NCBI RefSeq assembly: GCF_003148645.1
Contig: NZ_QGGP01000010.1
Location: 1 to 64,000, forward strand
DNA length: 64,000 bases
Source: Xanthomarina spongicola
GTDB lineage: Bacteria > Bacteroidota > Bacteroidia > Flavobacteriales > Flavobacteriaceae
Direction of reading: 5' to 3'
Shown here: piece by piece, positions 4,723 to 29,182 of the stretch
How positions within the stretch are numbered: position 1 is the first letter of the stretch
How the letters are laid out: each line of letters starts with the position of its first letter
The notes under the pieces: model-generated
Database searches by the model: none
The model's input: the letters and a program-made list of their open reading frames with translations, nothing else
What the model was told of the DNA's origin: nothing
Made by a program: the position numbers and the translations under genes

Positions 4723-4766
4723 CAAATTTAAGCAAGATATTACTTGCAAAACATGATTAAAGTCAG
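4723..4766 (-). promoter_or_regulatory. FNR-like activated promoter of the copper operon
   Basis: On the minus strand the half-sites CTGAC-TTTA-ATCAT (4766-4753) form an imperfect palindrome. A Bacteroidota -7 element TAAATTTG (4730-4723) lies downstream. The palindrome centre (4759.5) is 36.5 bp from the final G of the -7 element, which places it near -41.5, the class II position of CRP/FNR activators. No -33 TTTG box is needed or evident. Spacing and -7 sequence are identical to those at 12833-12876. Confidence 0.68.
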
Positions 4767-4794
4767 ATTTCAAAAAAATATATGTTATAAAAAA

Positions 4795-4818
4795 AGAGCT
4801 GAATTTACATCCAGCTCT
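4795..4818 (-). terminator. terminator after the first universal stress gene
   Basis: AGAGCTG and CAGCTCT form a 7-bp stem with a 10-base loop. On the minus strand it is followed by a run of T, 24 bp after the stop codon of the 4843-5676 gene. Confidence 0.75.
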
Positions 4819-4842
4819 CAACATATTTTTTAATAAGTTCTA

Positions 4843-5676
4843 TTACAATTTAAATGTCATTACTGGTAAAATAGCATGATTTGCAATGTCTTCTGAAATA
4901 CTACCTTCAAAGAAATGAGCAATTCCAGTTCTACCATGAGTAGCAACAGCAATTAAATCTGCTCCTATTTTATTAGCAAAGTTTAAAACACCTTTTTCAA
5001 CTGTATAATCAGATACAAAATTAATGTGCTGTAGGTTGTCTAAATTACCATCAGCTGTCATTAAAAAAGTAGCTACAATTTCATCTATCTCGTTAGTACT
5101 TTTAAACCTATCTGAAGGTAAGTTTACATAAAGCAAATGTAATTTAGCATTTAACGCCTTAAAAAGTTTTGAAGCTTTTAAATATACTGCTACAGATTTT
5201 GAAGAAAAATCGCTAGCAAATACAACATCTTTAAAATTGTCCTTTTCGAATTTATGTTTCAAAACAAGTACAGGAATATCTGCATGTCTTACAACTTTTT
5301 CAGTATTAGAACCAACAAATATTTCAGACAGTCCACTAGAACCATGAGAACCCATTATTATTAAGTCTGCATTATGTTCTAGAGCTACATCGTTAACTTC
5401 GCTAAACACTTTAAAATGTTTAACTATAGGAGTAATATTAACATTTTTTAAGTAAGGTTTATCAAGAAATTCGTTGAATCTCTTTTCAGCAAGCCTTAAA
5501 AAGAAAATAGCTTTTTGTTGTTGTTCAGAATCTGTTTTATTAAGTACTGCATCAGAAATTTCTAGCATGTGTAGTGCTAAAATTTCTGTATCACCATTTT
5601 TTGCTAATTTTACTGCAGCTTCTAAAGCATATTCTGAATGCTCTGAAAAGTCGATTGGTACGATGATTTTATTCAT
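4843..5676 (-). CDS. universal stress protein with two Usp domains
   Basis: The 277-residue cytosolic protein is a tandem of two UspA folds, starting KIIVPIDFSEHSEYALEAA. The first domain ends with the ATP-binding signature G109-x2-G112-x9-G122-S, followed by EKVVRHADIPVLVLKH. The second half has the related but altered ATHGRTGIAHFFEGS. A close paralogue lies at 12979-13812, and the two bracket the nos operon. The gene begins 117 bp after nosY and has its own terminator, so it may be read through from nos or have its own promoter. Usp proteins of this type respond to respiratory or redox stress. A specific role here is inferred only from location. Confidence 0.9.
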   Translation of the reverse strand: MNKIIVPIDFSEHSEYALEAAVKLAKNGDTEILALHMLEISDAVLNKTDSEQQQKAIFFLRLAEKRFNEFLDKPYLKNVNITPIVKHFKVFSEVNDVALEHNADLIIMGSHGSSGLSEIFVGSNTEKVVRHADIPVLVLKHKFEKDNFKDVVFASDFSSKSVAVYLKASKLFKALNAKLHLLYVNLPSDRFKSTNEIDEIVATFLMTADGNLDNLQHINFVSDYTVEKGVLNFANKIGADLIAVATHGRTGIAHFFEGSISEDIANHAILPVMTFKL

Positions 5677-5793
5677 TTTAAATAAATTTATAATGTTTGT
5701 TTCTAAACTTTAAAAGTAAATTAATTTACGCTTTTAATAGCAGAAATCAAAGACGAATTTCAAATATAAAACTTCAGTAGACAAATTTTACTA

Positions 5794-6576
5794 TTAAAAA
5801 TCTTTCCTTTTAGCTTTAAAAACGATTCTTAAAACTGGCATTATTACCCATACTGATAACATAGAAATGGAAATAATTAAACCAAAATTAGTGCCGAAAA
5901 ATTGTTTGAAAATAGCTCCTGTATAACCTAGTAATGCAGATATATCAAGCTTTAACAAAATAAGTGTTCTAGATAAATCTATAGGATTTAACATGGTACC
6001 TATTAATGATAATTTGTCTAAAGGATAATCTTCAAACAAAATTAAAGTCATTAAGAAAATTCCATCGTAAATAATGGCTAAAAACAACCAAAGTAATATG
6101 GCATAACCAAAACCTTTAATTTTATTTTCGTTAGATAAAGCAATATTAAATGCTAAAGCAGTAAAAATAAAGGTTAAAAAAGTACCTGTTATTAATAGAA
6201 GTGAAAAATCCCAAATGGCTGAAGATTTAAATAAACCATAAAAAATGAATGGGATTCCTAAACCTAAAATTAAACTCATAGACAATGAAATGGCAACACC
6301 TAAATACTGTCCTAAAAATATAGAGGATCGTTTTAAAGGTTGCGCTAATAGAAGCTCTGTAAATTCTTTGGAATTATAATAGTACATGACACCAAAAATG
6401 GTTCCAATTAATGGCACTAAAACAATTATAACATTCATTAAGGTTATTACTGCTTTAGAGAGGTCGTTATTTAAAAACAATAGCACTACTCCAAGCAATA
6501 AATAGAATGCAAAATACACGTAGCTCCAACGGCTTCTCATTAAATCGTAAAAACTATATTTTAATATTTTAAGCAT
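5794..6576 (-). CDS. nosY: NosY, ABC-transporter permease for NosZ maturation
   Basis: The 260-residue protein has about six transmembrane segments. It begins MLKILKYSFYDLMRSRWSYVYF, and EFTELLLAQPLKRSSIFLGQYLG is the usual coupling-helix region of NosY/ABC-2 permeases. It is the last gene of the nos operon and overlaps nosF by 8 bp, which indicates translational coupling. NosY forms the inner-membrane channel of the NosDFY complex, which with NosL supports assembly of the CuZ centre of N2O reductase in the periplasm. Confidence 0.92.
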   Translation of the reverse strand: MLKILKYSFYDLMRSRWSYVYFAFYLLLGVVLLFLNNDLSKAVITLMNVIIVLVPLIGTIFGVMYYYNSKEFTELLLAQPLKRSSIFLGQYLGVAISLSMSLILGLGIPFIFYGLFKSSAIWDFSLLLITGTFLTFIFTALAFNIALSNENKIKGFGYAILLWLFLAIIYDGIFLMTLILFEDYPLDKLSLIGTMLNPIDLSRTLILLKLDISALLGYTGAIFKQFFGTNFGLIISISMLSVWVIMPVLRIVFKAKRKDF

Positions 6577-7276
6577 GATTGTCTGTTAATATAGATGCGA
6601 TGGCATGTTCGAAATCTGGTTGATTGGTTTTGCTTTTAAGTTCGCTAATGGTACCTTTAAAATAAATTTGTCCTTCAAGGAGAAACACAATTTCATCTGA
6701 AATTTCTTCAACAAAACTCATAATATGCGATGTAATAAGAATGGTCTTTCCTTTTGCTTTTTCGGCTTGAATCAATTTTTTTAATCTTAATAATGAAATT
6801 GGATCTAGACCAGAAGTTGGCTCATCTAAGATTACTAAAGGGCTATCGAACATAAAAGTTAACACAAGGTTTACTTTTTGTTTGGTTCCTCCAGAGAGGT
6901 TCCCTAATTTTTTATCTAAAAATGGCTCTAGTTTAAAGAGACTAATTAATTCTTGATCTAGGGTTGTATTACCACGTAAATCCTTAATCATTTTAATTAA
7001 TTCTTTAACTTTTAGATTGTTAGGAAAATTTGCAATCTGTGGTAAATAATCTATTTTATGTCTGTAGGCTGAACCGTTTTTTACGTTTTCTCCTAGTACA
7101 TTAATGTTTCCTTTGTTAGGAATAACCATACCTAACAGGCATTTAATTAGTGTTGTTTTCCCTGAACCATTAGGTCCAAGAACAGCAAAAATGCCACCTT
7201 CTCCAATTTCCAGATCAAGACCACTTAAAACTTGGTTCTTTCCGAATTTTTTATGTAAATTTTGAATGCTTACCAT
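6569..7276 (-). CDS. nosF: NosF, ATPase subunit of the NosDFY transporter
   Basis: This 235-residue ABC ATPase has Walker A GPNGSGKTT (about 34-42), the signature LSGGTKQK (127-134), Walker B LVILDEP (147-153) and an H-loop His at about 184. Length and sequence fit NosF. The start overlaps the nosD stop by 7 bp, and its own end overlaps nosY, so the three are probably translated together. It powers NosDFY during copper-sulfur centre biogenesis for NosZ. Confidence 0.93.
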   Translation of the reverse strand: MVSIQNLHKKFGKNQVLSGLDLEIGEGGIFAVLGPNGSGKTTLIKCLLGMVIPNKGNINVLGENVKNGSAYRHKIDYLPQIANFPNNLKVKELIKMIKDLRGNTTLDQELISLFKLEPFLDKKLGNLSGGTKQKVNLVLTFMFDSPLVILDEPTSGLDPISLLRLKKLIQAEKAKGKTILITSHIMSFVEEISDEIVFLLEGQIYFKGTISELKSKTNQPDFEHAIASILTDNHA

Positions 7277-8505
7277 TCTATTTTTTTCATTTTAGGGTTA
7301 TTATCCAATAAATTATCTGGTGTAAATACAGGTGATACTTTTTCAGAAAAATCAATAATATCAATAAACAAACTACGAAGCAAAATAATAGTCTCAGGTG
7401 TTCTGTTTACAATATACGAAAACAGTTTTACTGGTCTGTATGGAATGTCTCCAATCCCATTTTTATCTAAATCATAACCTGTATAATTACTCCAGTAGTT
7501 ATTATTAAATATATTATCGTTTATATTACTGTTATAAGAAATGTCAAAGGAATTGTACAAGAAATTATTACTTATAAAATGATTGGTATAGCAAGCTCCA
7601 CGAACTTTAACTGCCCAACCGTTACTAATAAAGTTATTATTTTTATAATTAATTCTATTCGATCCTTCTATGTTAATACCAATGGTATTATCAGTAAAAG
7701 TATTTCCTTCTATTTCGGCATCGTTAATTTCTTTTAGAAGTAAGCCATAAGATGCTGTTCCCCAGTTTTCCTTAAAATTGTTGTTATACATTTTAATCTT
7801 TTTTGAAAACATGACAGCTACTCCTGCTCCATTGTTTTGGAAGATATTGTCTTGATAAATATCGTCGTTAGAGAACATAAAATGTAATCCATAACGGATA
7901 TTATTGGCACTTACATTGTTTTTTATAATACAATCGTCTGAAAATTCTAAATATATTCCATCTCGAACACGTTCAACAAAATTATGTTCAATTTCAACGT
8001 TCTTACTATACCATAATTGGATACCATTTCCCGAATTATATTCTTCTTTAGCATCTCCAATTATTTTATTATGAAATATCTTACCGTTACGCCCTTTTTC
8101 AATATAAATTCCAAAAAACAGCTTTTCTAAAACCAGATTTTTTATAACAAAATCGTTACTTCTTTTTACACGAATAGCTGCATAATCTTCCGTATAACTT
8201 GTTCCTACATTAATAATAAATAAGCCATCAACGGTAACACTATCTGAAACTATGGTGATTATTTCACCTTTCATTTCACCATCTATTACAGGATAATTTT
8301 CGCCAATAATGGTTAAAGGCTTATCTACTAAAATATCATGTTCTTTATAAGTCCCTTTTTTAACTACAATAGTGTCAAAGCTTTTTGCAACTTTAATCGC
8401 ATCGTTTAATTTTGATATCGGACAATCTTCGCATACATCAATTGTTTGAGCATGCAAGACACTGGCTAATAACATAGCTATAATAGAAACTATTTTAATT
8501 TTCAT
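7270..8505 (-). CDS. nosD: NosD, periplasmic beta-helix subunit of NosDFY
   Basis: The 411-residue exported protein has signal peptide MKIKIVSIIAMLLASVLHAQ. A long run of parallel beta-helix (CASH/PbH1) repeats follows, rich in NN, GI and IxxN turns such as GIYIEKGRNGKIFHNKI and GLHFMFSNDDIYQDN. The closing SNYTGYDLDKNGIGDIPYRP motif is characteristic of NosD. It sits on the periplasmic side of NosFY and is required for the CuZ cluster. nosD starts 1 base before the nosL stop codon in genome order (8505 versus 8507) and overlaps nosF. Confidence 0.94.
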   Translation of the reverse strand: MKIKIVSIIAMLLASVLHAQTIDVCEDCPISKLNDAIKVAKSFDTIVVKKGTYKEHDILVDKPLTIIGENYPVIDGEMKGEIITIVSDSVTVDGLFIINVGTSYTEDYAAIRVKRSNDFVIKNLVLEKLFFGIYIEKGRNGKIFHNKIIGDAKEEYNSGNGIQLWYSKNVEIEHNFVERVRDGIYLEFSDDCIIKNNVSANNIRYGLHFMFSNDDIYQDNIFQNNGAGVAVMFSKKIKMYNNNFKENWGTASYGLLLKEINDAEIEGNTFTDNTIGINIEGSNRINYKNNNFISNGWAVKVRGACYTNHFISNNFLYNSFDISYNSNINDNIFNNNYWSNYTGYDLDKNGIGDIPYRPVKLFSYIVNRTPETIILLRSLFIDIIDFSEKVSPVFTPDNLLDNNPKMKKIEW

Positions 8506-8506
8506 G

Positions 8507-8947
8507 TTAATCTTCTTTAAAATGAATCAATAATTCATCCCAAGAGTAAAGTGTTCCTTCTTTTTCAGCTTGAACTTTTAAGGCATCTTCTTTAGTTTTA
8601 AAAGCTGTTAAAAAAGCTCCCATAGGACTTGGAACATTCTTACTAATTAAAAAAGTTGCTTTAGTTGCATCGACAAGTGTTTCTGGTTCTGTATATATAT
8701 TTGTTAGATATAATTTTATTTCGGAAGCTTCAAAATCTTTCATGAAGTTTATCATACATTCTGAAGCATCAAACTTGTATACTTTACCTTTATTAGTTAC
8801 TATTTCTGCAGCATGAACCTTATCTACTATGGTCATTTTACAAAAATGACAACCATCAGTTCCATAGTCAATAGCTTGTGGCCCAACATTACAACTGGTT
8901 AATACCAATAGCAATGCTACAAAGGAAAATTGTTTTAATCTTTGCAT
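8507..8947 (-). CDS. nosL: NosL, copper chaperone lipoprotein
   Basis: The 146-residue lipoprotein has its lipobox Cys at residue 19 (LVLTSCN). It has the NosL core: C33-x2-C36-K-M38 (CHFCKM), VDKVHAAEIVTNKGKVYKFDASEC (C64) and M65. NosL delivers Cu(I) to NosD/NosZ in the periplasm, and the CxxCxM residues are the expected copper ligands or their neighbours. The gene stands between the NosB-like gene and nosD in the same operon, 36 bp after the former. Confidence 0.92.
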   Translation of the reverse strand: MQRLKQFSFVALLLVLTSCNVGPQAIDYGTDGCHFCKMTIVDKVHAAEIVTNKGKVYKFDASECMINFMKDFEASEIKLYLTNIYTEPETLVDATKATFLISKNVPSPMGAFLTAFKTKEDALKVQAEKEGTLYSWDELLIHFKED

Positions 8948-8983
8948 AATTTTAGTGTTTTGTTTGAGATTTTGTTAGATATA

Positions 8984-9601: not shown

Positions 9602-9653
9602 AATATTAATTTACTATTGAGTTAACCATTTAGTTAATAGTGTTTAAAAAGAA

Positions 9654-9682
9654 AGGCGAGAGCGACAAATCAACTCTCGCCT
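9654..9682 (-). terminator. hairpin between nosZ and the downstream nos genes (attenuator)
   Basis: AGGCGAGAG and CTCTCGCCT form a perfect 9-bp GC-rich stem with an 11-base loop. On the minus strand it is followed by TTCTTTTT. It lies 62 bp after the nosZ stop and 52 bp before the next nos gene. With no clear promoter seen behind it, it probably works as a partial terminator or a 3'-stabiliser that keeps nosZ mRNA more abundant than the maturation genes. Confidence 0.75.
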
Positions 9683-9744
9683 TATATAGGAAAATAAACA
9701 CTAAAACAAAATTTTCCTAAACTTATATGCGTGTAAACTATTTA

Positions 9745-11706
9745 TTAATCTTCACCTAATGACCAAGATAATTCTATGTTAGAATCTGCTGGAGACACAC
9801 GAATATATCCTTGCATTTCTTGGTGTAAAGCAGAACAGAAATCTGTACAATAGAATGGCCACACACCAACTTGCTTAGCTTCCCAAGTTAAAGTTTTAGT
9901 TTGACCAGGAGCTATTAACAACTCAGCGTTATTAGCACCAATCATTGCAAAACCATGAGGTACATCGAAATCTTGCTCTAAGTTTGTTACATGGAAAAAC
10001 ACTTTATCACCTACTTTAATACCTTCAATATTATCTGGAGTAAAGTGGCTACGTATTAGTGTCATGTAAACATGTACGTTTTTACCGTCTCTAACTACTT
10101 TAGTTTCGCTTTCATTTGTAGCTTTTCTTGGGTGTTCATTTTCTGCTAGTTTATAGATCTTTCTAGATTTATCTTTAATAATTTCTGCTGGAATTGCTGC
10201 TGCATAGTGAGGTTCACCATGAGTAGGGAAATCTAAAAGTAATTCCATTTTATCTCCTGAAATATCATATAGTTGCGCAGAATGTTCCATTTCTGGACCA
10301 ACTGGTAAATAACGGTCTTTGGTAATTTTGTTCATAGCAAACATATATTTACCAAATGGCTCTCTTGAGTTACCTCCAGGAATTGTTAAGTGACCTACAG
10401 AATAATATGTTGGTTTTCTGTCTAATACTTCCCAAGTACCTAATTTCCATTTTACAACTTCAGAAGAGATAAAGAAAGTAGTATATGCGTTTCCTTGACC
10501 ATCAAATTCTGTATGTAAAGGTCCTAAACCTGGTTGCTCTACAGAACCTGCAAGCACATCTTCGAATTTTAAAATTGGAATTCCATAAGCATCTCCATCA
10601 AATTTCTCGTTCTCAATAGCATCAAGCATTTTAGTAAATGAGTGTACTGTTAAGTTAGCAGATAATTTACCATTTCCTACAATGTATTCTCCAGAAGGAT
10701 CAACGTCACAACCATGAGGTGATTTTGGAGTTGGTAATAAATATATTGCTCCAGGAACTTCTGATGGGTTGATAACACGTACTTCTTTTTTCATAGTAGA
10801 AGTTGCAGTGTGTGTGTTTTCGTCATAAACGTTATGTGCATAATTTGCTGGCATCATTGTACCACCACCATTATTTACATATTCTTCAATTTTTTTCCAG
10901 TTTATAGCTGCAATAAAATCTTTATCGTTTTGAGAAGCATTTACTTCTAACAACGTGCTAGCTTCTTCTGTATTATAAGTAGTAAAGAAGAACCATCCGT
11001 GAGATTTTCCACGACCTGGATGTGATAAATCGTAGTTAAAACCTGGCATTAGTACTTGGAATTTAATATCCATATGTCCATGTTCTGGATCTACAGAGAT
11101 AAAAGATAAAGCACCTTTAAAGTTTCCTTTATAGTCTTTTATAGCCATGTCTTTTTGTGGTACTGGTACAGAAAATCTTGTTCCTGCAACTACATACTCA
11201 GTATTCTCAGTAATAAAAGATGAACTGTGGTTACCAGCACTATTTGGAACTTCAATAATTTCTTCAGTTTCAAAAGATGTTAAACTAATTCTTGCAATAC
11301 GAGGTGTATTGTTTCCATTAATAAAAACCCAACGACCATCTAATTTACCGTTAGTTTGAGAGATATCTGGGTGATGCGAATCATCCCAAGGCACAAATCC
11401 GTAAGATGTTTCTAATAATGGTTTTGTTTCTTCAGAATATCCATATCCATTTGTTGGAAATTGAGAGAATACTGGAATTTCTTTAAACATTCTTCCTGAA
11501 GGTAAGCCATAAACAGTAAGGTTACCACTATATCCACCAGAAATAAATGCATAATGAGAATCGTGCTCTCCTGGTGCTACATATACTTTTTCTGCTTTAC
11601 TAGAGCTTAAAGCACCATTTGATTTGCTAGATTTTTGATCACCACAACTTGTAAAAGCTATAGCTGTAATTAAAAACCCAATTGATAATTTAAAAATGTT
11701 TTTCAT
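9745..11706 (-). CDS. nosZ: nitrous-oxide reductase NosZ, clade II, lipoprotein-type signal
   Basis: The 653-residue enzyme reduces N2O to N2 in the periplasm. The N-terminal beta-propeller carries the CuZ ligands: H111-H112 (DSHHPDIS), H160 (AGNHSSSF), H331 (SPHGCDVDPSG), H398 (LGPLHTEFDG) and H439 (VGHLTIPGG). A seventh His (H291 is a candidate) cannot be fixed by eye. The C-terminal cupredoxin domain has the CuA site: H584 (VPHGF), C620, C624, H628 and M631 in FYCTDFCSALHQEM. The signal is Sec-type with a lipobox (FTSC, Cys21) and no twin-arginine motif, as expected for clade II but suggesting membrane anchoring. It lies 22 bp after the fasciclin gene in the nos operon. Confidence 0.97.
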   Translation of the reverse strand: MKNIFKLSIGFLITAIAFTSCGDQKSSKSNGALSSSKAEKVYVAPGEHDSHYAFISGGYSGNLTVYGLPSGRMFKEIPVFSQFPTNGYGYSEETKPLLETSYGFVPWDDSHHPDISQTNGKLDGRWVFINGNNTPRIARISLTSFETEEIIEVPNSAGNHSSSFITENTEYVVAGTRFSVPVPQKDMAIKDYKGNFKGALSFISVDPEHGHMDIKFQVLMPGFNYDLSHPGRGKSHGWFFFTTYNTEEASTLLEVNASQNDKDFIAAINWKKIEEYVNNGGGTMMPANYAHNVYDENTHTATSTMKKEVRVINPSEVPGAIYLLPTPKSPHGCDVDPSGEYIVGNGKLSANLTVHSFTKMLDAIENEKFDGDAYGIPILKFEDVLAGSVEQPGLGPLHTEFDGQGNAYTTFFISSEVVKWKLGTWEVLDRKPTYYSVGHLTIPGGNSREPFGKYMFAMNKITKDRYLPVGPEMEHSAQLYDISGDKMELLLDFPTHGEPHYAAAIPAEIIKDKSRKIYKLAENEHPRKATNESETKVVRDGKNVHVYMTLIRSHFTPDNIEGIKVGDKVFFHVTNLEQDFDVPHGFAMIGANNAELLIAPGQTKTLTWEAKQVGVWPFYCTDFCSALHQEMQGYIRVSPADSNIELSWSLGED

Positions 11707-12304: not shown

Positions 12305-12811
12305 TTATTTAAGTGTTCTAAAATATTCTAATACAGCTCTTGCTTCTTCTTCAGTTAAATTTTGGTTTGCCATTGGCGAACCATTAAATTCAATTAATAA
12401 TTCTTTAGCTAGAGGATCTGATTTAGTCATTTCTTCTGGATTTAAAATCATGTTCATTACCCATTCTGGAGTTCTACGCTCTAGAATACCATTAGGAGCT
12501 GGACCGATAAATTTTTTGTCAACTCTATGGCAAGCTGTACACATTTTTTTAAATACATCTTCTCCTTTGGCAACCATAGATTGGTCTATATCTGCAGACA
12601 AGTCTACTGATGTAATTGGACCAACACCTTTATTAGTTAGATCTATTTTTTCTGAAGCTTTTACTGCAGTTTCGGTTTTAGGAGCTTCTTTTTTCTCAGT
12701 TGGAGCCTTTTGTTGAAAAGTAGGAGCTTCTTCTTTTTTTTCTTCTTTTCCTCCACAACTTATAAGTAGAGTAATAAATAATACGGTAATAATTTTTAGT
12801 GTTACTTTCAT
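12305..12811 (-). CDS. mono-haem cytochrome c lipoprotein, likely electron donor to NosZ
   Basis: The 168-residue lipoprotein has lipobox LLISC (Cys19), a charged Lys/Glu/Pro-rich linker (about 22-55) that could reach out from the membrane, and a class I cytochrome c domain. The haem site is C91-T-A-C94-H95, and the probable sixth ligand is M147 in GSPMANQNLTEEE. It is the first gene of the nos operon, directly behind the FNR-like promoter. No NosR or NosG/H-type gene is visible in the window, so this cytochrome is the best local candidate to feed electrons to the CuA site. Confidence 0.9.
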   Translation of the reverse strand: MKVTLKIITVLFITLLISCGGKEEKKEEAPTFQQKAPTEKKEAPKTETAVKASEKIDLTNKGVGPITSVDLSADIDQSMVAKGEDVFKKMCTACHRVDKKFIGPAPNGILERRTPEWVMNMILNPEEMTKSDPLAKELLIEFNGSPMANQNLTEEEARAVLEYFRTLK

Positions 12812-12832: not shown

Positions 12833-12876
12833 CAAATTTAATGGCTATACTTACAATAAAATATGACTTTAATCAT
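12833..12876 (-). promoter_or_regulatory. FNR-like activated promoter of the nos operon
   Basis: On the minus strand ATGAT-TAAA-GTCAT (12876-12863) is a near-perfect palindrome. The -7 element TAAATTTG (12840-12833) follows, with the palindrome centre at 12869.5, again 36.5 bp from its last base. The predicted start at about 12828 gives a 5' leader of about 17 bases before the cytochrome ATG. The stretch TTAAATTTGCCCTA is identical to that in the copper-operon promoter. Confidence 0.72.
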
Positions 12877-12978: not shown

Positions 12979-13812
12979 TTATATTTTAAATGTCATAACT
13001 GGCAAGGTTGAATGATTTGCTATATCTTCAGAAATACTACCTTCAAAGAAATGAGAAATACCTTTTCTTCCTCGAGTTGCTACAGCTATTAAGTCGGCTC
13101 CAATAACATTCGAAAAGTTTAATATTCCTTGTTCTATAGTATAATCATTAACATAATTTACTTCTTTCATTTTTTCAATATTTCCTTCTGCTTTTCGTAA
13201 AAATGAAGCTACAAGTTTTTCCATTTCAGATGAACTTTTAAATCTTGAACTAGGCAAGTTAACATATACTAAATGCATTTTAGAGCCTAGTTTTTCAACC
13301 ATTTCTTTAGCTCTTATATATTGCTCAATGGCATCTTCTGAAAAATCGCAAGCAAAAACCACGTTTTCAAAATCCATTAATATTGGATTGTGCTTAATAA
13401 TTAAAACTGGTATATCTGAATGTCTAACAACCTTTTCAGTATTAGAACCAATAAAAACTTCTTTTAAGCCACTAGCTCCTTGCGAACCCATAACAATAAG
13501 GTCTGCTTCGTGTTCTTTTGCTACATCGTTAACTTCACTAAAAACCTTGAAATGCTTTATAATAGGAGTAACCTTAATGCCTTTTAAATAATTTTTATTT
13601 AAGAATTCTTCGAATCTCTTTTCTGCTAATTTTAAAAAGAAAAGAGATTCCATTTGTTTCATGCCATCCACCTTATTCATTACAGCGTTAGAAATTTCTA
13701 ACATATGCAAAGCTAAAATTTCTGCATTATTCTTTTTAGCCAACATAGATGCAGCTTCAAGAGCATATTCGGAATGCTCTGAGAAATCTACTGGTACAAT
13801 TATTTTTTTCAT
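12979..13812 (-). CDS. universal stress protein with two Usp domains, paralogue of 4843-5676
   Basis: The 277 residues match the length of the 4843-5676 protein, and most of the sequence is shared (MKKIIVPVDFSEHSEYALEAA; GSQGASGLKEVFIGSNTEKVVRHSDIPVLIIKH; ATRGRKGISHFFEGSISEDIANHSTLPVMTFK). The G-x2-G-x9-G-S nucleotide signature is intact in the first domain. It follows hemN by 16 bp and is probably cotranscribed with it from the FNR-like promoter at 15212-15255. Anaerobically induced Usp proteins are common, which fits. The 3' flank also begins AAAAGAGCTGAA like that of the other copy, a trace of duplication. Confidence 0.9.
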   Translation of the reverse strand: MKKIIVPVDFSEHSEYALEAASMLAKKNNAEILALHMLEISNAVMNKVDGMKQMESLFFLKLAEKRFEEFLNKNYLKGIKVTPIIKHFKVFSEVNDVAKEHEADLIVMGSQGASGLKEVFIGSNTEKVVRHSDIPVLIIKHNPILMDFENVVFACDFSEDAIEQYIRAKEMVEKLGSKMHLVYVNLPSSRFKSSSEMEKLVASFLRKAEGNIEKMKEVNYVNDYTIEQGILNFSNVIGADLIAVATRGRKGISHFFEGSISEDIANHSTLPVMTFKI

Positions 13813-13828: not shown

Positions 13829-15193
13829 TTATATAGTCATAGAAAACAATTGTGTTTCTGGTTTCTTTTCTTGCAATAACAAGTCGAAAGCCATACAAAT
13901 GTTTCTTACAAATGGTTTTCCTTTTTCGGTAACACGAATTTCGTTAGAATCTATTTCCACCAATTTATCTAGCTCCATTTCTTTTAAACTTACAAGTACT
14001 TCAGGAAGTTCTTTAAAATATAGATGATTAGTAGTCCAAGTTGTTTTAAACTGACACATAAGGTTTAATATGTGCTTTCTAATAATTAAGTCCATATCAT
14101 TTAAAATATGACCTCTATATATTGGTATTTGATTTTCTTCTATTAATTGATAATACTCTTCTAAACCTTTTACATTTTGTGCAAAACCATACCAACTATC
14201 ACTTATGGAAGACACTCCTAACCCAATCATTGCCTGAGTTTTTGAAGCAGTATAACCCATAAAATTTCTATGTAATTTTTGTTGCTCTATAGATTTGTAG
14301 AGTGAATCTGTCTTTAAAGCAAAATGATCCATGCCAATTTCAACATATCCAGCCTTTGCTAACAATTCTTTGCCAAGCTCGTATTGCCTTCTTTTAGATT
14401 CTGCAGATGGTAAATTTTCTTCTTTAAAACCTCGCTGACCATTACCTTTAATCCATGGCACATGTGCATAACTATAAAACGCTAAACGGTCAGGCTTTAA
14501 TTCTTTTGTTTTAAGGATGGTTTCTTCTACATGCTCTTCTGTTTGAAAAGGAAGTCCAAAAATAATATCATGTCCTACAGATGTATAACCTATCTCTCTG
14601 GCTTGTTCTGTAACACGTTTTACGTTTTCGAATGGCTGAATTCTATGTATTGCTATTTGAACCGTTTTATTATAATCTTGAACACCAAAACTTACGCGTC
14701 TAAAACCCAAATCGAATAATGTCTGTAAATGTTCTTTAGTTGTATTGTTTGGATGTCCTTCGAAACTAAATTCGTAACCATCAGCTAAGATGGCTTTATC
14801 TAAAAGACCATTAATTAATTTTTTTAAATTATCTGTAGAAAAGAAAGTAGGTGTACCACCACCTAGATGTATTTCCTTAATTTTTGGTTTCGCATTAAAT
14901 AACTCGCAGTATAAAGCCCATTCTTTTAAAATGGCTGTTATGTATGGAGATTCTACTTCATGCCTTTTAGTAATTCTTTTATTACAACCACAAAACGTAC
15001 ATAAACTCTCACAAAAAGGTAAATGTAAATACAAGCTTAATCCTTCAGAACTATTACTTTCCTTAAAAGATTGCATTAAAGTTTCCTTCCATTTTTCAAA
15101 AGAAAAGGTTTTAATATCCCAATAAGGCACAGTTGGATAACTGGTATAACGTGGACCAGCAACATTGTATTTATTTACTAAAGAATTATTCAT
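13829..15193 (-). CDS. hemN: oxygen-independent coproporphyrinogen III oxidase HemN
   Basis: This is a 454-residue radical-SAM enzyme. It begins MNNSLVNKYNVAGPRYTSYPTVP and has the HemN-type cluster motif CESLCTFCGCNK with C61, C65, C68 and C70, a GGGTPTF SAM-binding motif, and the HemN C-terminal domain. It decarboxylates coproporphyrinogen III to protoporphyrinogen IX without O2, so haem can be made under anoxia. The ATG at 15193 is chosen over a TTG 9 bases earlier because it gives the conserved N-terminus. Its promoter carries the same FNR-like site as the nos operon. Confidence 0.95.
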   Translation of the reverse strand: MNNSLVNKYNVAGPRYTSYPTVPYWDIKTFSFEKWKETLMQSFKESNSSEGLSLYLHLPFCESLCTFCGCNKRITKRHEVESPYITAILKEWALYCELFNAKPKIKEIHLGGGTPTFFSTDNLKKLINGLLDKAILADGYEFSFEGHPNNTTKEHLQTLFDLGFRRVSFGVQDYNKTVQIAIHRIQPFENVKRVTEQAREIGYTSVGHDIIFGLPFQTEEHVEETILKTKELKPDRLAFYSYAHVPWIKGNGQRGFKEENLPSAESKRRQYELGKELLAKAGYVEIGMDHFALKTDSLYKSIEQQKLHRNFMGYTASKTQAMIGLGVSSISDSWYGFAQNVKGLEEYYQLIEENQIPIYRGHILNDMDLIIRKHILNLMCQFKTTWTTNHLYFKELPEVLVSLKEMELDKLVEIDSNEIRVTEKGKPFVRNICMAFDLLLQEKKPETQLFSMTI

Positions 15194-15211
15194 ATAAAAC
15201 AACTTCAGCTA

Positions 15212-15255
15212 CAAAAGTATATTTTAGCCCTTTTTAAAAATATGACTTTTATCAT
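15212..15255 (-). promoter_or_regulatory. FNR-like activated promoter of hemN-usp
   Basis: The minus strand reads ATGAT-AAAA-GTCAT (15255-15242). The -7 element TACTTTTG (15219-15212) follows, with the centre at 15248.5, 36.5 bp from the last G. The predicted start is near 15207, giving a leader of about 13 bases. The site lies between divergent hemN and sodC, so it could also influence sodC. Confidence 0.7.
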
Positions 15256-15328: not shown

Positions 15329-15913
15329 ATGAAAAAATCAATATTATTTGCGCTATTACTAACTTTAAGTTTTGCTATTGGATGTAAAAAAGAGAAAAAA
15401 GAAAATACTCCAGAAGAAACGAAAACTGAAGAAAAAGTAGTTGAAACAGTAAATGAAGAAGTGAAAAAAATTAAAATAAAATTAGAACCAAAGAGTGACA
15501 GTAATGTCTCTGGAAATGCTGTTTTTACTGAAACCGAAGGAAAAGTAACAATGGTTGCTGTTTTTGATGGTTTAACTCCAGGAACACATGCCATCCATTT
15601 ACATGAAAAAGCAGATTGCTCTTCAGCTGATGGAAAATCTACTGGTGGACATTGGAATCCAACAAGCGAACCACATGGAAAATGGGGAGACGCTAAAGGC
15701 TACCATAAAGGAGATATAGGAAACATGGAAGCAGATGCTAACGGAAATGCAACTATTACTTTTAGTACAGACCAATGGTGTATAGGTTGTGGAGATTCTA
15801 ATAAAGAAATTATAGGAAAAGCTATTATAGTTCACCAAGGTGTGGACGATTTTACTACGCAGCCAACAGGTGATGCTGGCGGACGTGTAAGTTGTGGTGG
15901 AATTATTGAATAA
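15329..15913 (+). CDS. sodC: Cu/Zn superoxide dismutase, lipoprotein
   Basis: The 194-residue lipoprotein (lipobox FAIGC, Cys19) has a charged Glu/Lys linker and a complete SodC domain. Copper ligands are H90, H92, H108 and H169. Zinc ligands are H108, H116, H126 and D129. C97 and C189 form the conserved disulfide, and the sequence GGRVSCGGI near the end is diagnostic. It converts extracytoplasmic superoxide to peroxide and O2. Its place opposite the hemN/nos region fits a copper-handling, low-oxygen neighbourhood. Confidence 0.95.
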   Translation: MKKSILFALLLTLSFAIGCKKEKKENTPEETKTEEKVVETVNEEVKKIKIKLEPKSDSNVSGNAVFTETEGKVTMVAVFDGLTPGTHAIHLHEKADCSSADGKSTGGHWNPTSEPHGKWGDAKGYHKGDIGNMEADANGNATITFSTDQWCIGCGDSNKEIIGKAIIVHQGVDDFTTQPTGDAGGRVSCGGIIE

Positions 15914-18458: not shown

Positions 18459-18989
18459 ATGCAGTTAGAACAACTAGTATCTAAATTTCAAGATAAAGAT
18501 GAAAAGGCTTTCGAAACCTTATACAACATGTATAGCGAGAGCATGCTTGGTGTTATATACAATATTGTTAGAGATCATGATATAGCCCAAGATGTGATGC
18601 AAGAAGTTTTTATTAAAGCTTGGCATAGTGCAGACAGCTATTCTTCTAAAAAAGGACGATTTTTCACTTGGCTGATCAACATTTCTCGAAATGCAGCAAT
18701 AGATAAAATACGTTCAAAAAGCTTTAAAAACGCAGGTAAAAACCTCAACTCAGATTATTTCGTAGATATTATACAGGACCATGACAGTTTGGAAGACAAA
18801 ACCGATGCTATTGGCATTAAGAAGTTTGTTGGGAAGTTAAAAAAGAAGTGTATTGAGGTGATAGAGCTTTTATATTTTAAAGGTTATACACAAAAAGAAG
18901 CTTCAGAAACCTTAGAAATGCCTATTGGAACTATAAAAACAAGAAATAGAAATTGTATCAACGAATTAAGGTTGATGCTTGAAGTGTAG
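18459..18989 (+). CDS. ECF sigma factor (group IV, SigK-like)
   Basis: The 176-residue sigma factor has region 2 at about 10-85 (DEKAFETLYNMYSESMLGVIYNIV, DIAQDVMQEVFIKAWH and the RFFTWLINISRNAAIDKIRSK part) and region 4 at about 125-172 (CIEVIELLYFKGYTQKEASE then GTIKTRNRNCINELR, the -35-binding helix-turn-helix). The gene is followed after 1 base by the anti-sigma factor. It probably drives the two matching promoters at 18345-18374 and 23835-23864. No copy of that promoter faces its own start, so autoregulation is not evident. Confidence 0.92.
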   Translation: MQLEQLVSKFQDKDEKAFETLYNMYSESMLGVIYNIVRDHDIAQDVMQEVFIKAWHSADSYSSKKGRFFTWLINISRNAAIDKIRSKSFKNAGKNLNSDYFVDIIQDHDSLEDKTDAIGIKKFVGKLKKKCIEVIELLYFKGYTQKEASETLEMPIGTIKTRNRNCINELRLMLEV

Positions 18990-18990
18990 A

Positions 18991-19800
18991 ATGGATATTA
19001 AAGAATACATAGAATCTGGAATTTTAGAACTGTATGTTGCAGGAACACTTTCTGAAAAAGAAAATCAGGAAATCTATGCCCTTTTATTAAAACATCCAGA
19101 ATTACTTGACGAAGTTCTAAAAATAGAATCTGCTATAGTTACATTAACTGCAGCAGTATCACCAACAGACACAAAACATCTTTTTCAAGCAGTAAAAGAA
19201 AAATTAGGCATCCAAACAGACAAAGACACACCTGTAAGACCACTACACAAACCTGGAACAAATTGGTTTAGTTATGTAGGTTGGGCAGCAACACTTGTTA
19301 TTGGACTTGGACTAATGTGGTTTGTAAACCAAAATAACAACTTAAAAGACCAAATACAAACCGTTGAAACCGATAAGGAGCTTTTAGAAGTTACACTTGA
19401 AAAATACAGTAACGATTTAACAGAAACCAAACAATTAATCACTTTCTTAAGAGATAAAGATATTATAGCAGTTCCACTTGCTGGACAAGCTGTGTCTCCA
19501 GACTCTTATGCAAAAGCCTATTGGGATAAAAAAACCAATACAGTTGTTTTAGACGTACAAGGTTTACCAGAACCACCACAAGGAAAAGTGTATCAAGTTT
19601 GGTCGTTAACATTGAATCCGTTAACGCCTACTAGTCTTGGCACTATAGATGACTTTAGCACAGACGACAACAAGCTCTTTACTATAGAAAATGCCAATGC
19701 TTCTGAAGCCTTTGGGATTACTTTAGAACCAGCTGGAGGAAGCGAATCTCCAACGCTAGAACAACTTTACACGCTTGGTGCTGTTGAACAAACTTCTTAA
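18991..19800 (+). CDS. RskA-like anti-sigma factor
   Basis: The 269-residue membrane protein has a cytoplasmic N-terminal sigma-binding region (DIKEYIESGILELYVAGTLSEKE), a transmembrane helix at about 86-107 and a short coiled coil. The C-terminal RskA domain is extracytoplasmic (PLAGQAVSPDSYAKAYWD, then GLPEPPQGKVYQVWSLT and EAFGITLEPAGGSESPT). It should hold the preceding sigma factor inactive until regulated proteolysis. The ATG at 18991 is chosen, since a TTG 12 bases earlier lies inside the sigma gene. No typical zinc HxxxCxxC motif is seen. Confidence 0.9.
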   Translation: MDIKEYIESGILELYVAGTLSEKENQEIYALLLKHPELLDEVLKIESAIVTLTAAVSPTDTKHLFQAVKEKLGIQTDKDTPVRPLHKPGTNWFSYVGWAATLVIGLGLMWFVNQNNNLKDQIQTVETDKELLEVTLEKYSNDLTETKQLITFLRDKDIIAVPLAGQAVSPDSYAKAYWDKKTNTVVLDVQGLPEPPQGKVYQVWSLTLNPLTPTSLGTIDDFSTDDNKLFTIENANASEAFGITLEPAGGSESPTLEQLYTLGAVEQTS

Positions 19801-22545: not shown

Positions 22546-23121
22546 TTACCAAGCCGAAGCTAAGTAAGGAAATGAAGCAGAAAAAGGTTTATCGTTTGCA
22601 TCAACATTATCGTTAGATAGTTGTGGGTTTTCAGAAAAATCTTCACCACCAAAAATTAATAGTAGTTCTACTGTAATTACATCGTCTGCTAAAGCACGAC
22701 CTGTTAACACATTGGTACCATCGTAAAAAGTTGTTGTACCATCTAAAGACAGATTTAATACATCAGTAGCTAACAAACCTGTGAAAGTTGCAGCATCTAA
22801 ACCAAGTGCATTAGTATCTCCTGGATTAGCATAAGCTGGACTTAAAGCCATTAAATTTGTTTGAAACATGCTTTGAAACGCTGCATTTTGTTGTGATGGA
22901 GGCGTTACATTATACATATCTTTACTTGATGAGGATACAAAAACAGTATTTACTGCTGGTCTTCCCATTTGGTCTTGTTGTGCATAAATACCTGAGAAAT
23001 CTGGTTCTGTTGGCATTGGGTTTCCACTATTCATAGCATCATCGTCATTTGAGCAATTAAATGCTAGTAGTGATATAAATAAGATGCCAAGGATGTTTTT
23101 TATATTTAATAAGTTTTTCAT
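22546..23121 (-). CDS. DUF4331-like lipoprotein, C-terminal-half type
   Basis: The 191-residue lipoprotein has a lipobox Cys at 23 (LLAFNC) followed by SNDDDAMNSG. Its body (QMGRPAVNTVFVSSSSKDMYNVTPPSQQ, and later GRALADDVITVELLLIFGGE) resembles the second half of DUF4331 proteins, which contain GRP-x-NTV and GR-x-L-x-DDV motifs. The gene before it supplies the first half, so the family's usual single chain appears to be split here into two exported proteins. The gap between them is 21 bp. Function unknown. Confidence 0.7.
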   Translation of the reverse strand: MKNLLNIKNILGILFISLLAFNCSNDDDAMNSGNPMPTEPDFSGIYAQQDQMGRPAVNTVFVSSSSKDMYNVTPPSQQNAAFQSMFQTNLMALSPAYANPGDTNALGLDAATFTGLLATDVLNLSLDGTTTFYDGTNVLTGRALADDVITVELLLIFGGEDFSENPQLSNDNVDANDKPFSASFPYLASAW

Positions 23122-23142
23122 AATTCTTGTTTTTAAAGGTTA

Positions 23143-23793
23143 TTATTGTTTTCTCTTAGATTCTACCCAAGTGTTAACAGTTCCAGAACCACCTAGCATG
23201 CTTTTTGGTACTTCTACCACAATAGACATGACATTAGATCCTGCAAAAGTATCTGAGCCAGGATTATTAAATCCAGTTGCATTTCCAGCAAGTATTTCGC
23301 CATATTGCGCAAAATCCATAAAGAATGGATCGTCTCTAGGTCCAGCAAATATTTTCAAACCATTACTAGTTTTAATAATCGCGTCTGTTCCATAAGGAGT
23401 AATATCTACTATAGATTGAGCTCCTAAAGTTTCAATCATACTGTTAAGACCAGTTGTTCCCGGATTTGTTGGTCCGAAGAAATACATTTTCCCATCTCTT
23501 GGAATGGCTTGTATTACCAGATTTTCAACATAGTCACCTGTTGTGTCTATATTAAATTCTATTAATACATTTTCATCGAAAGTGGCATCAGCAGTTGCCG
23601 AAGGACTTAAAAGACCTTGAACATTTGCAACAAATACTACATTGTCTGAGTTTTGCGCCTGAAAGGCATAAAAATCTGTGATATCGCTTGTACCACCTTG
23701 TACAGCAGGAGCATCGATGTGATCTGCTGCTACCATAAAGAAACTAGCTACTGCTAATGCGCTAATTCCTAAAATTACTTTCATTGTTTTCAT
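23143..23793 (-). CDS. DUF4331-like exported protein, N-terminal-half type
   Basis: The 216-residue protein starts MKTMKVILGISALAVASFFMVAA, a signal peptide, and then shows ADHIDAPAVQGGTSDITDFYAFQ, the hallmark start of DUF4331. An in-frame ATG at 23835 is rejected because it overlaps the promoter -10 element, upstream of the expected transcription start. The chain ends after VPKSMLGGSGTVNTWVESKRKQ, about half the family's usual length. The next gene carries the rest. It is the first gene of an operon driven by the ECF-type promoter at 23835-23864. Biochemical role unknown. Confidence 0.8.
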   Translation of the reverse strand: MKTMKVILGISALAVASFFMVAADHIDAPAVQGGTSDITDFYAFQAQNSDNVVFVANVQGLLSPSATADATFDENVLIEFNIDTTGDYVENLVIQAIPRDGKMYFFGPTNPGTTGLNSMIETLGAQSIVDITPYGTDAIIKTSNGLKIFAGPRDDPFFMDFAQYGEILAGNATGFNNPGSDTFAGSNVMSIVVEVPKSMLGGSGTVNTWVESKRKQ

Positions 23794-23834
23794 AATAGTG
23801 AGTTTTTTGTTAATTAATAATTGTCTCTCACACA

Positions 23835-23864
23835 TACCTACGAAAAAAAGTAGAGGTCGGTTTT
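23835..23864 (-). promoter_or_regulatory. ECF-type promoter of the DUF4331 operon
   Basis: Minus-strand AAAACCGAC (23864-23856), 13 bases, CGTAGGTA (23842-23835). Elements, spacing and the T-rich spacer end are the same as at 18345-18374. The predicted start near 23827 leaves a leader of about 34 bases to the ATG at 23793. Confidence 0.7.
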
Positions 23865-25116: not shown

Positions 25117-25118
25117 TT

Positions 25119-25871: not shown

Positions 25872-25916
25872 ATTTTAATAAGTTGGTTGGTTCGTATTCA
25901 TTTAATCAAAAAAAGC

Positions 25917-26240
25917 TTATTTCCAATGCTTTTTATCGTTATTCATATACTCTTTAATTTTGCGCTCTTCCCAGTTTTTCCCTAATATAAAATCTGGTAA
26001 AAACACACTTAATCCATGAACTGCTAAGCCAATTCCCCAGAAAAATAATGTGAAGAAATTTTTATACTGAAAATAACTTTCTCCAGGTGCCAAGTCTTGA
26101 ATGTTAATAATAACAATCATGATATTAATTACTACATACACTAATAAATGTGAGTAAAACCCTTTAATCTTTTTAACGCGTTTTCTAGCACGTTCTAAAC
26201 GCTCTAGTTCTGAAAAATCTCGTTCCATAATTATTTCCAT
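25917..26240 (-). CDS. 2TM-domain protein
   Basis: The 107-residue protein has a basic N-terminal helix (RARKRVKKIKGFYSHLLVYVVIN), two transmembrane segments (about 32-52 and 66-90) and the closing motif FILGKNWEERKIKEYMNNDK. The same module is fused to the C-terminus of the kinase just before it, whose last 10 bases overlap this start. ATG 26228 (MERDF) is an equally possible start. 2TM proteins accompany LytS/LytTR pairs in Flavobacteriaceae, perhaps as membrane partners of the kinase. Confidence 0.82.
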   Translation of the reverse strand: MEIIMERDFSELERLERARKRVKKIKGFYSHLLVYVVINIMIVIINIQDLAPGESYFQYKNFFTLFFWGIGLAVHGLSVFLPDFILGKNWEERKIKEYMNNDKKHWK

Positions 26241-27568: not shown

Positions 27569-27572
27569 GATT

Positions 27573-28202
27573 TTATTTACATTCTTTTAATACCTGTTCT
27601 GCTCTCTCTTTTCCCCATGTTGGCGAAAAATTTGTTTCTGGTTTAAAGTTAGCAAAAAGTTCTAACGATTTTTCAATCTCTTTACAATAAGGAGCTGTGT
27701 CTTGTCCAAAATATTGAGCACTTCCATAACCCCAATCTGCTTTACTAAATACAACTCTTGGATTTTCTGGAGCTAACCTGTAGGCTTTTTCATATAATTC
27801 TGAAATAGTAGCTCCATATTTCATTCCATAAAATGCACCATCAAAAACAACCCAATTGGTGTAAATATGAGCTTGCATTACCAATATTTCTGGATTGTCC
27901 TTACTTATGGATTTTGCAACATCTAAAAAAGTTTGAGCTTTATCTAATTGTGCTTTTATAATATTAGCATCCTTTTCTTCCCAACTTTTTAAGCTATTAA
28001 TTTGAGCCACATAGTAATTAGGCAACCATTCGTTAGGTTCTGCATTTGCAATACGCTCAAAAAATTGTTCGGCTGCAGTAAGGCCTTCTACTTCCCATAA
28101 TGAAAATGCTTTTTCCATAGCTTTTTCGTAATCTGTTTGAGACTGTATACTTCCAGTTAGTACAATTGCAACAATTACTATTAGTTGTTTTATTTGTGTC
28201 AT
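27573..28202 (-). CDS. exported TPR-like protein preceding the LytS kinase
   Basis: The 209-residue protein has a signal peptide (MTQIKQLIVIVAIVLTGSIQSQ) and alpha-helical repeats of tetratricopeptide type: AEQFFERIANAEPNEWLPNYYVAQ, AKSISKDNPEILVMQAHIY and YEKAYRLAPENPRVV. Two Cys (in APYCKEI and LKECK) may pair. It is the first gene of the operon with the kinase, 2TM protein and LytTR regulator. A role as periplasmic partner of the sensor is inferred from the operon. Confidence 0.8.
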   Translation of the reverse strand: MTQIKQLIVIVAIVLTGSIQSQTDYEKAMEKAFSLWEVEGLTAAEQFFERIANAEPNEWLPNYYVAQINSLKSWEEKDANIIKAQLDKAQTFLDVAKSISKDNPEILVMQAHIYTNWVVFDGAFYGMKYGATISELYEKAYRLAPENPRVVFSKADWGYGSAQYFGQDTAPYCKEIEKSLELFANFKPETNFSPTWGKERAEQVLKECK

Positions 28203-28315
28203 AATATATCTTTTTAATGTTAAGACAAATATCTAACTAACAAGGTAACATTTAAAAAGAGTTCCCTTGAACTGTTAAATATTATTTCTGAATTGTAATT
28301 AGTATACAATTAATA

Positions 28316-28350
28316 AAAAAAACACCTTCTTAGTTTAAGAAAGTGTTTTT
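28316..28350. terminator. terminator after tonB
   Basis: AAAACACCTTCTTA and TAAGAAAGTGTTTTT pair around a short loop and run into T on the minus strand (A/T-rich on both sides). It lies 37 bp after the stop of the 28387-29118 gene. Confidence 0.75.
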
Positions 28351-28386
28351 AATTATTTTTAATAATACTCAAATTACTTATGAATA

Positions 28387-29118
28387 CTAATTCTGAATTT
28401 GAAAATTTATGGGAATACTATATGGTACTGATACTGGTCTACCTCTTTGATAACCAGGTTTCATTTGTGGTAGCAAACCAATGATACGTTCTGCCTCTTT
28501 TTCTAACATTTTATCTGGTCCACGAGATTTAATATTTGCAACATTACCATCTTTATCGATAGTAAAAAGCACAAATACTTTACCATAAATTCCTAATTCT
28601 AAAGCTGCTTGTGGGTATCTAAAGTTCTTAATAATATGATCGTTTATTTTTTTACTAAAGCATGCTTTTAATTCATCGTTAGAATTTCCATCACAACCTG
28701 GAAAAACTGGTACTTCTTCTACAACTGAAAATGGAACAGATACTTCTTCATCTATATCTTCAACATCAACATCACTCACTTCTACAATACGTTCTTCAAT
28801 TTTTTCATCTTGACTAGTTTCAGAACTCTCTATTACAGTTTCTTCAATTTCTTTTGCATCTTCAACAATTGTAATTGTTTCGGGAGCCGAAAGAACTGGA
28901 GGTGGTGGAGGTGGTGGAGGCATATTCAAATCTGTAATAGGAATATCTTCTTCAAACTCCTCTATAAGAGTAAGATTCTCTAATAAAACATCCGGTTTAT
29001 CAAACGTTTTATACTCTAGGGACAGCCAAGTAATAAGCAACATAACATTTAATCCGATAGCGAAATAAAGGCTACTGTTTCTGCTTACTGCAATATTTGG
29101 ATTCTTTTTTACTTCCAT
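28387..29118 (-). CDS. TonB-family energy transducer
   Basis: The 243-residue protein has one N-terminal transmembrane helix (about 17-34), a proline run of eight residues (about 67-74), a Glu/Asp/Val-rich periplasmic spacer and the TonB C-terminal domain (about 150-243). The domain is marked by NFRYPQAALELGIYGKVFVLFTI and SVPYSIPINFQIQN. It couples the proton motive force to TonB-dependent receptors. Its promoter has the FNR-like site found before the copper and nos operons, so it may supply the copper receptor under low oxygen. Confidence 0.93.
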   Translation of the reverse strand: MEVKKNPNIAVSRNSSLYFAIGLNVMLLITWLSLEYKTFDKPDVLLENLTLIEEFEEDIPITDLNMPPPPPPPPVLSAPETITIVEDAKEIEETVIESSETSQDEKIEERIVEVSDVDVEDIDEEVSVPFSVVEEVPVFPGCDGNSNDELKACFSKKINDHIIKNFRYPQAALELGIYGKVFVLFTIDKDGNVANIKSRGPDKMLEKEAERIIGLLPQMKPGYQRGRPVSVPYSIPINFQIQN

Positions 29119-29138
29119 GACGATACAATTTATAGTAT

Positions 29139-29182
29139 TAAAGTTAATACTCTAACTTTCAAAATACTATGACATTCGTCAT
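29139..29182 (-). promoter_or_regulatory. FNR-like promoter of tonB
   Basis: ATGAC-GAAT-GTCAT (minus strand, 29182-29169) is a perfect 5-bp inverted repeat. It is centred 36.5 bp from the last base of TAACTTTA (29146-29139), which matches TAnnTTTG in all but the final base. The predicted leader is about 16 bases. The geometry matches that of the other three sites. Confidence 0.6.

Follow-up and report, generated by a model that had tools for sequence, protein, structure and literature searches.

An FNR-like palindrome at one fixed distance from the -7 element of copper, nos, hemN and tonB promoters in Xanthomarina spongicola: a probable class II activator site

Why should four promoters of one genome region carry the same palindrome at the same distance from the -7 element? 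The question is raised by a window of 64,000 nucleotides (positions 1-64,000 of contig NZ_QGGP01000010.1, the whole stretch of DNA analysed) from Xanthomarina spongicola, the assembly of which (GCF_003148645.1) comprises 3.16 Mb in 29 contigs. An initial annotation reported palindromes of the form ATGAY-N4-RTCAT, one base off in one case, before a copper operon, the nos operon of nitrous-oxide reduction, hemN with a universal stress protein gene (usp) and tonB, and placed the palindrome centre 36.5 bp from the last base of the -7 element in each. Direct reading of the window has confirmed the four palindromes, with the deviating base at the copper operon, as well as the distance of 36.5 bp at copper, nos, hemN and tonB alike. 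All four sites lie on the minus strand and consist of the palindrome, 22 nt and the -7 element (Table 1). The same annotation regarded the core as that of FNR, which holds for the dyad TGAY-N4-RTCA but not for the classical FNR box, the outer base being A and not T. The arrangement is very probably explained by class II activation through this box by an activator of the CRP/FNR family, mainly the protein designated R1 below, with a second protein, R2, probably sharing in it.

One alternative is that AT-rich DNA yields palindromes and TAnnTTTG elements by itself and that four pairs were picked by eye. The palindrome alone agrees with such a reading, as the full 14-mer pattern ATGAY-N4-RTCAT was found at 34 places in the X. 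spongicola genome versus 23 for the reversed pattern used as control. The spacing speaks otherwise. The outer base is fixed in the 14-mer and free in searches with the core dyad TGAY-N4-RTCA (own genome, R1 loci and phylum sample), and a gap of 22 between the 14-mer and the -7 element TAnnTTTG is the same spacing as a gap of 23 from the core dyad. The pattern CAAANNTA-N{8,38}-TGAYN4RTCA gave 25 matches in the X. spongicola genome, 12 of them at gap 23; this concentration at one of 31 gaps has a binomial p of about 4e-12 against uniform gaps. In 40 genomes (X. spongicola and 39 relatives) the exact composite of palindrome and -7 element occurred 138 times, distributed over 29 of them, and the reversed pattern was absent from all 40. 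Loci around 80 R1 orthologues, 968 kb in total, held 76 core composites, while none of ten Markov sequences held more than 1. In addition, orthologous tonB, copper and nos promoters keep the composite. Chance is refuted by these phasing statistics, with both the reversed-pattern and the Markov controls, and its probability is negligible. The identical phasing of the four sites is not accidental, as the initial annotation had held, and one spacing dominates genome-wide, so that dyad and -7 element are not equally common at other spacings.

Perfect composites occur at 8 of the 34 palindromes of the X. spongicola genome. They precede ccoS/ccoNO (cbb3 oxidase), a NirK-cytochrome c fusion, NadA, a cytochrome c, a thioredoxin-like protein, MlaE, nos and hemN. 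Another 14 sites with one mismatch include those of a ccoI-like P-type ATPase, OmpW, a Usp, copper and tonB, and the remainder stand before less clear genes or inside coding sequence. Gaps of 36-38, which would correspond to a class I position, also recur here and in the relatives and were tentatively read as unlikely promoters, since the direction in the cco locus runs into the 3' end of ccoI.

Promoters of Bacteroidota consist of a -33 and a -7 element (TTTG...TAnnTTTG), and in Escherichia coli an activator bound at -41.5 occupies the class II position. A logo built from 114 non-redundant composites has AAAY before the dyad, RTTTT after it, an otherwise flat spacer, and slight preferences past the -7 element, at bases 3-5 and 8. 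A pyrimidine-purine (YR) step falls at bases 4-5 past the -7 element in 59 of 114 composites versus 28 expected, the highest value of the positions counted. This suggests a start of transcription (+1) five bases after the -7 element, and the dyad centre would therefore lie at -41.5, in support of the class II position at about -41.5 proposed by the initial annotation. The phased set shares the -7 element TAnnTTTG with the known -33/-7 promoters and appears to differ from them at -33, where no conserved TTTG is found in the 114 promoters and the palindrome with its AAAY/RTTTT extension fills the place. Unphased TAnnTTTG sites, of which few were available for this comparison (31, then 73), likewise have no more than a faint TTTG, at about gap 18 (3 versus 0.4 expected; n = 73), so that class II activation without a -33 box, as suggested by the initial annotation, is not established as a special feature of the phased set.

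The palindrome could also be a repressor operator, its fixed spacing then reflecting the need to cover one face of the promoter. Palindromes near promoters are often operators, and the box beside the R1 gene overlaps a core promoter. Repressor sites, however, usually vary in position, which counts against this explanation, whereas a single spacing dominates here in the X. spongicola genome, the genus, the family and the class. Moreover, -41.5 is the position of class II activators, and in 70 of 71 loci the first T of the ccoI -7 element is missing, a defect that would suit a promoter dependent on an activator. Repression as the general function of the box is consequently given very little probability.

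The composite has been retained in related genomes to a degree that depends on the gene. At tonB it is kept with at most one box mismatch in all 8 genomes of the genus (X. spongicola included), and the -7 element ends in A in all of them. Eight TonB paralogues of about 55% identity are present, and the seven tested have nothing like the composite (5-6 mismatches); the eighth has an internal stop. The copper composite is kept in 7 of the 8 genus genomes and, with 1 mismatch, in G012, and is weaker in G020 (2 mismatches). Boxes of the copper orthologues have C or G as the outer base. The first gene of the copper operon has matches in 23 of the 40 genomes, own included, and its ATG lies 3-4 nt past the -7 element in 9 of 11 orthologue rows. 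If transcription starts about five bases past the -7 element, the copper mRNA would begin at or within this ATG and would be leaderless, unless the true start codon is further down.

Among the matches listed from a search with free gaps, gap 22 accounts for 40 of 53 in that part of the same genus, apart from X. spongicola itself, which the listing covers, and for 60 of 97 in other genera. The composites of other genera number 76, and an open reading frame (ORF) of at least 60 aa is present within 320 nt downstream in 68 cases. These ORFs were compared with 37 reference proteins taken beside palindromes of the X. spongicola genome, some of which are products of later operon genes or belong to palindromes without a phased -7 element; 39 of the 68 matched a reference and 29 matched none. 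The matches were with the nos cytochrome (7), CcoS (7), HemN (5), the thioredoxin-like protein (4), Usp (3), MlaE (3), CcoI (2), cytochrome c (2) and NirK (2), with four singles. A Pfam tally of the 68 ORFs agrees and adds two S30AE proteins (ribosome-hibernation type), PEP carboxykinase and phosphate acetyltransferase.

Nitrous-oxide reductase permits the same comparison across the family. Of 149 family genomes, X. spongicola included, 71 have NosZ, which makes Flavobacteriaceae frequent carriers in this sample, and 69 loci were examined after exclusion of G253 and G273, where too little upstream sequence exists. A perfect composite precedes nos in 57 of the 69 and a composite with one mismatch in 8, so that 65 of 69 have at most one mismatch; in the control, ten gaps per locus reached that level in 4 of 690. 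The misses are G292 and G353, which have no dyad in the stretch examined, G239, which has a dyad and no good -7 element, and G281 (L382), which was scored as a miss though its contig stops before the promoter. In a phylum sample of 198 genomes, matches were listed for 20 genomes, all from this class but from other families. Gap 23 holds 60 of the 150 matches listed and the neighbouring gaps 16 and 17, with about 11.5 expected at each; the outer base being free, this result concerns the spacing code and not the ATGAY box.

Which protein would bind the box? Three proteins with a Crp-type helix-turn-helix (HTH) are encoded in the X. spongicola genome. R1 (L036:9944-10621) lies beside ccoI and cbb3 genes and belongs to the CRP/FNR superfamily, with PF00027 and PF13545 both above cut-off. 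A profile of R1 and 14 homologues has its best PDB match in 2gau_A (Crp/Fnr family, 5e-43), with FNR structures at about 2e-36. For the comparison with E. coli FNR (5cvr/5e44 were matched) we take the residues of interest in FNR to be C20, C23, C29 and C122 together with E209, S212 and R213. R1 shares with FNR the CRP/FNR fold, the N-terminal CxxC, the cysteine at the C122 position, and a Glu and an Arg of the recognition helix: C4, C7 and C106 align with C20, C23 and C122, and E191 and R195 with E209 and R213. It differs in having Ile (I194) at the position of S212 and no Cys at that of C29, with C53 instead. C4, C7, C53 and C106 are invariant in all 80 R1 orthologues, which come from Xanthomarina, Bizionia, Winogradskyella, Kordia, Flavobacterium, Tenacibaculum and others. 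It would appear from these residues that R1 holds a cluster with a different ligand set. The third HTH protein, R3 (L038:2938-3570), was rejected as a candidate, its helix being without the E-x-x-I-R pattern.

The R1 gene is itself closely associated with the dyad. In 73 of the 80 loci a core dyad is located no more than 160 nt upstream of R1, and 9 of the 80 loci are without any core composite. On the ccoI side, 71 of the 73 have xAnnTTTG at gap 22; on the R1 side, 52 of the 73 have TAnnTTTR at gap 8, a position at which the promoter would be covered by a bound dimer. One palindrome in activating phase towards ccoI and in overlap with the R1 core promoter probably activates the former and represses the latter. 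The first base of the ccoI -7 element is T in only 1 of the 71 loci in register (L195-L274, about 70-110 nt upstream of R1), a conserved avoidance of the consensus. Phased sites were found in 29 of 33 genomes with an R1 match (E 1e-10) and in 0 of 7 without.

R2 (L029:6185-7237) is a fusion of receiver, cNMP and Crp HTH domains, adjoins a histidine kinase and has the helix IATETLIR; the recognition helices of R1 and R2 share E-[ST]-x-I-R. The box might thus be mainly a site of R2, fed by the adjacent kinase, with R1 in a minor role at nos, hemN, copper and tonB. A phased site is found no further than 80 bp from 6 of 12 R2-type genes and no further than 1.2 kb from 8, the type being assigned by frame length (about 350-371 aa) except for R2 itself (domains) and four genes with the helix read (L421-L424). 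G257, G320 and G014 have no R1 (no match above 36% identity), possess R2-type proteins with E-[ST]-L-I-R and keep the nos box. G248 also lacks R1 and keeps the nos box; it encodes two proteins as long as the R2-type and, in addition, a 237-aa homologue whose helix differs (KETVNR). The nosZ gene of G239 is preceded, at a distance of about 0.85 kb and in the same orientation, by an R2-type gene. Against a leading role of R2, an R1 orthologue is the sole match at E 1e-10 in G001, G007, G013, G015 and G023, yet these genomes have 2-8 phased sites, which in G013, G015 and G023 include those of nos, CcoS, CcoI, HemN, thioredoxin-like and MlaE genes. The presence of the dyad before R1 itself in 73 of 80 loci also argues against it, and R2 as the principal regulator is considered improbable.

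Contrary to expectation, genomes without R1 have not lost the nos box, as G257, G320, G248 and G014 each keep one. R2 is included in the explanation for this reason and probably shares the box with R1; for the same reason the sequence by itself does not name the regulator at a given promoter. The initial annotation had proposed one CRP/FNR-type regulator for the four promoters. Its CRP/FNR-type class II arrangement is supported at nos, hemN, copper and tonB, genome-wide and across genera, but the singleness of the regulator is not established, given the same helix in R1 and R2 and the nos boxes of the four R1-less genomes. The R2 gene lies in an island on contig C1 (432-456 kb; L029, L039, L040) that holds 12 of the 64 composites with at most two mismatches in the X. 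spongicola genome, among Usp and other genes. Within the island, 5 of the 12 composites begin with CTGA and 6 of the 12 have a -7 element ending in TTTA. The -7 element also ends in TTTA at the nos promoters L397, L396 and L404 (G320, G248 and G257, respectively) and L384 (G318). Of these genomes, G320, G248 and G257 are without R1, and G257 and G320 have an R2-type TESLIR helix; which regulator acts may thus be reflected in the final base of the -7 element.

In the explanation preferred here, the palindrome would be the operator of a CRP/FNR-family activator with its dimer centred at -41.5, and the bound activator would contact RNA polymerase with the primary Bacteroidota sigma factor at TAnnTTTG. 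The main activator would most likely be R1, an FNR-like protein encoded beside cbb3-oxidase genes and probably equipped with an oxygen-labile iron-sulphur cluster. On a fall in oxygen, R1 would switch on nos, nirK, the cbb3 oxidase and its assembly genes, and hemN, and in this genus also copper import and tonB, and would probably repress its own gene through the palindrome overlapping its own core promoter. R2 probably uses the same box at the stress island and probably replaces R1 at nos in some genomes. The sites, their spacing and conservation, the genes, the protein families and the conserved residues are observations, whereas binding, activation, the signal, autorepression and the sharing of work between R1 and R2 are inferred.

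Several results weigh against this explanation, beside the mild enrichment of the palindrome alone. Composites with at most two mismatches stand at 64 places in the X. spongicola genome versus 28 for the reversed pattern, so that nearly half of them can be noise. A second YR peak at bases 6-7 (46 of 114) blurs the predicted +1. The third cluster cysteine of FNR is missing from the aligned position in R1, and R1 scores 86.1 bits with the NCBIfam Fnr model, the cut-off of which is 228. The constancy of the recognition helix in the 80 R1 loci is not independent, the loci having been picked with that helix as search pattern. None of the 7 genomes without a regulator match exceeds 1.9 Mb, and this small size confounds the correlation between R1 and phased sites. 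G292 and G353 have a good R1 and a nos operon without the dyad. Finally, the R1-less G257, G320, G248 and G014 retain a nos box, each with a single mismatch.

A wider reading would extend these findings to a rigid class II code throughout Bacteroidia, with a dyad at fixed distance before TAnnTTTG, a sigma factor working free of -33, and, in flavobacteria, two sensors, R1 with its different cluster ligand set and R2, on one box at the same phase. This extension is tentative and somewhat less likely to be right than wrong. If it is true, the constant spacing (23 bp for the core dyad and 22 bp for the 14-mer) would let an unusual primary sigma factor work without a -33 element; oxygen and two-component signals would converge at nos and related promoters through R1 and a phosphorelay-driven R2; and lineages would exchange R1 and R2 while the promoter stays unchanged.

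The system may be compared with several known ones. Class II promoters of E. coli FNR and CRP have the same TGAY-N4-RTCA dyad at -41.5, and FNR likewise has a regulon of anaerobic respiration and hemN. The FNR box is TTGAT-N4-ATCAA as against ATGAY-N4-RTCAT here, with A (once C) at the outer base of the window boxes, and the E. coli promoter has TATAAT in place of TAnnTTTG. The Anr/Dnr/FixK-type regulons of Proteobacteria, as commonly described, have similar targets (hemN, cbb3 oxidase, usp and denitrification genes) with another box and promoter type; in the present system the regulator lies beside ccoI, with the box between them. HcpR1 and HcpR2 are of the CRP/FNR family like R1, and HcpR2 occurs in Bacteroides, according to PMC1274295. 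The HcpR1-type box given there, TTGACnnnnGTCAA, differs from the present box by one base per half, and the HcpR2 box, GTAACnnnnGTTAC, with hcp as main target, also differs from it; hcp was not seen among the downstream-gene families, taking the best 25 of 54 families in the tally of the relatives. That paper describes HcpR, DNR and NnrR as without an FNR-type cysteine motif, unlike R1 with its four invariant cysteines. It also relates the residues at CRP positions 180 and 181 to box bases 3 and 6. In R1 the invariant Glu follows a Thr (position 180 by alignment), and box base 3 is A; the two together would agree with this scheme. A regulatory RNA described together with HcpR in Bacteroides, in the preprint PMC13370916, is not the present system.

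Open-access literature, judged by titles, the beginnings of abstracts and selected passages and with subscription papers mostly outside its scope, yielded no report of the present box or of class II spacing in Bacteroidota. The regulation of nitrous-oxide reduction outside Proteobacteria has been called poorly known (PMC6264515). For nos, nirK, cbb3 oxidase and hemN, the present analysis offers a precise and testable cis code together with two candidate regulators, and it provides a defined system for studying the activation of Bacteroidota RNA polymerase. It also offers a further base specificity in an FNR-type box, which would agree with the link between helix residues and box bases reported in PMC1274295.

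Table 1. Phased palindromes (boxes), -7 elements and associated genes in the window
Feature	Position	Strand	Sequence	Remarks
Copper operon, box	4753..4766	-	CTGACTTTAATCAT	Outer base C instead of A
Copper operon, -7 element	4723..4730	-	TAAATTTG	22 nt from box; ATG 4 nt further on, at 4718
Copper operon, first gene	4323..4718	-		131 aa; no family match
YtkA-like protein	3367..4221	-		Below curated cut-off
TonB-dependent receptor	1282..3282	-		Best NCBIfam match is the copper receptor model, below cut-off
nos operon, box	12863..12876	-	ATGATTAAAGTCAT	
nos operon, -7 element	12833..12840	-	TAAATTTG	22 nt from box
nos operon, first gene, cytochrome c-like	12305..12811	-		Matches under cut-offs
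NosZ, Sec-dependent (clade II type) nitrous-oxide reductase	9745..11706	-		TIGR04246, 941.9 bits, cut-off 625
NosL	8507..8947	-		
NosD	7270..8505	-		
nos ABC ATPase	6569..7276	-		
nos ABC-2 permease-like protein	5794..6576	-		Below cut-off
hemN-usp, box	15242..15255	-	ATGATAAAAGTCAT	
hemN, -7 element	15212..15219	-	TACTTTTG	22 nt from box
HemN, oxygen-independent coproporphyrinogen III oxidase	13829..15202	-		First ATG of frame at 15193
Universal stress protein, after hemN	12979..13812	-		
tonB, box	29169..29182	-	ATGACGAATGTCAT	
tonB, -7 element	29139..29146	-	TAACTTTA	22 nt from box; one base off consensus
TonB	28387..29118	-		

Some further features of the window were noted. The tonB box lies inside a gap of 96 nt (29119-29214) that directly follows a TonB-receptor-like gene of the same strand. 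A divergent sodC-like gene at 15329 was considered as a target of the hemN box and rejected, since its element TAACTTTG is 40 bp from the hemN palindrome and out of phase. An ECF-type sigma factor is followed by an RskA-type anti-sigma factor at 18459-19800. At 22546-23835 two neighbouring ORFs on the same strand match different parts of DUF4331 (best stretches at profile positions 248-420 and 137-236) and are perhaps one gene broken by a frameshift or a stop.

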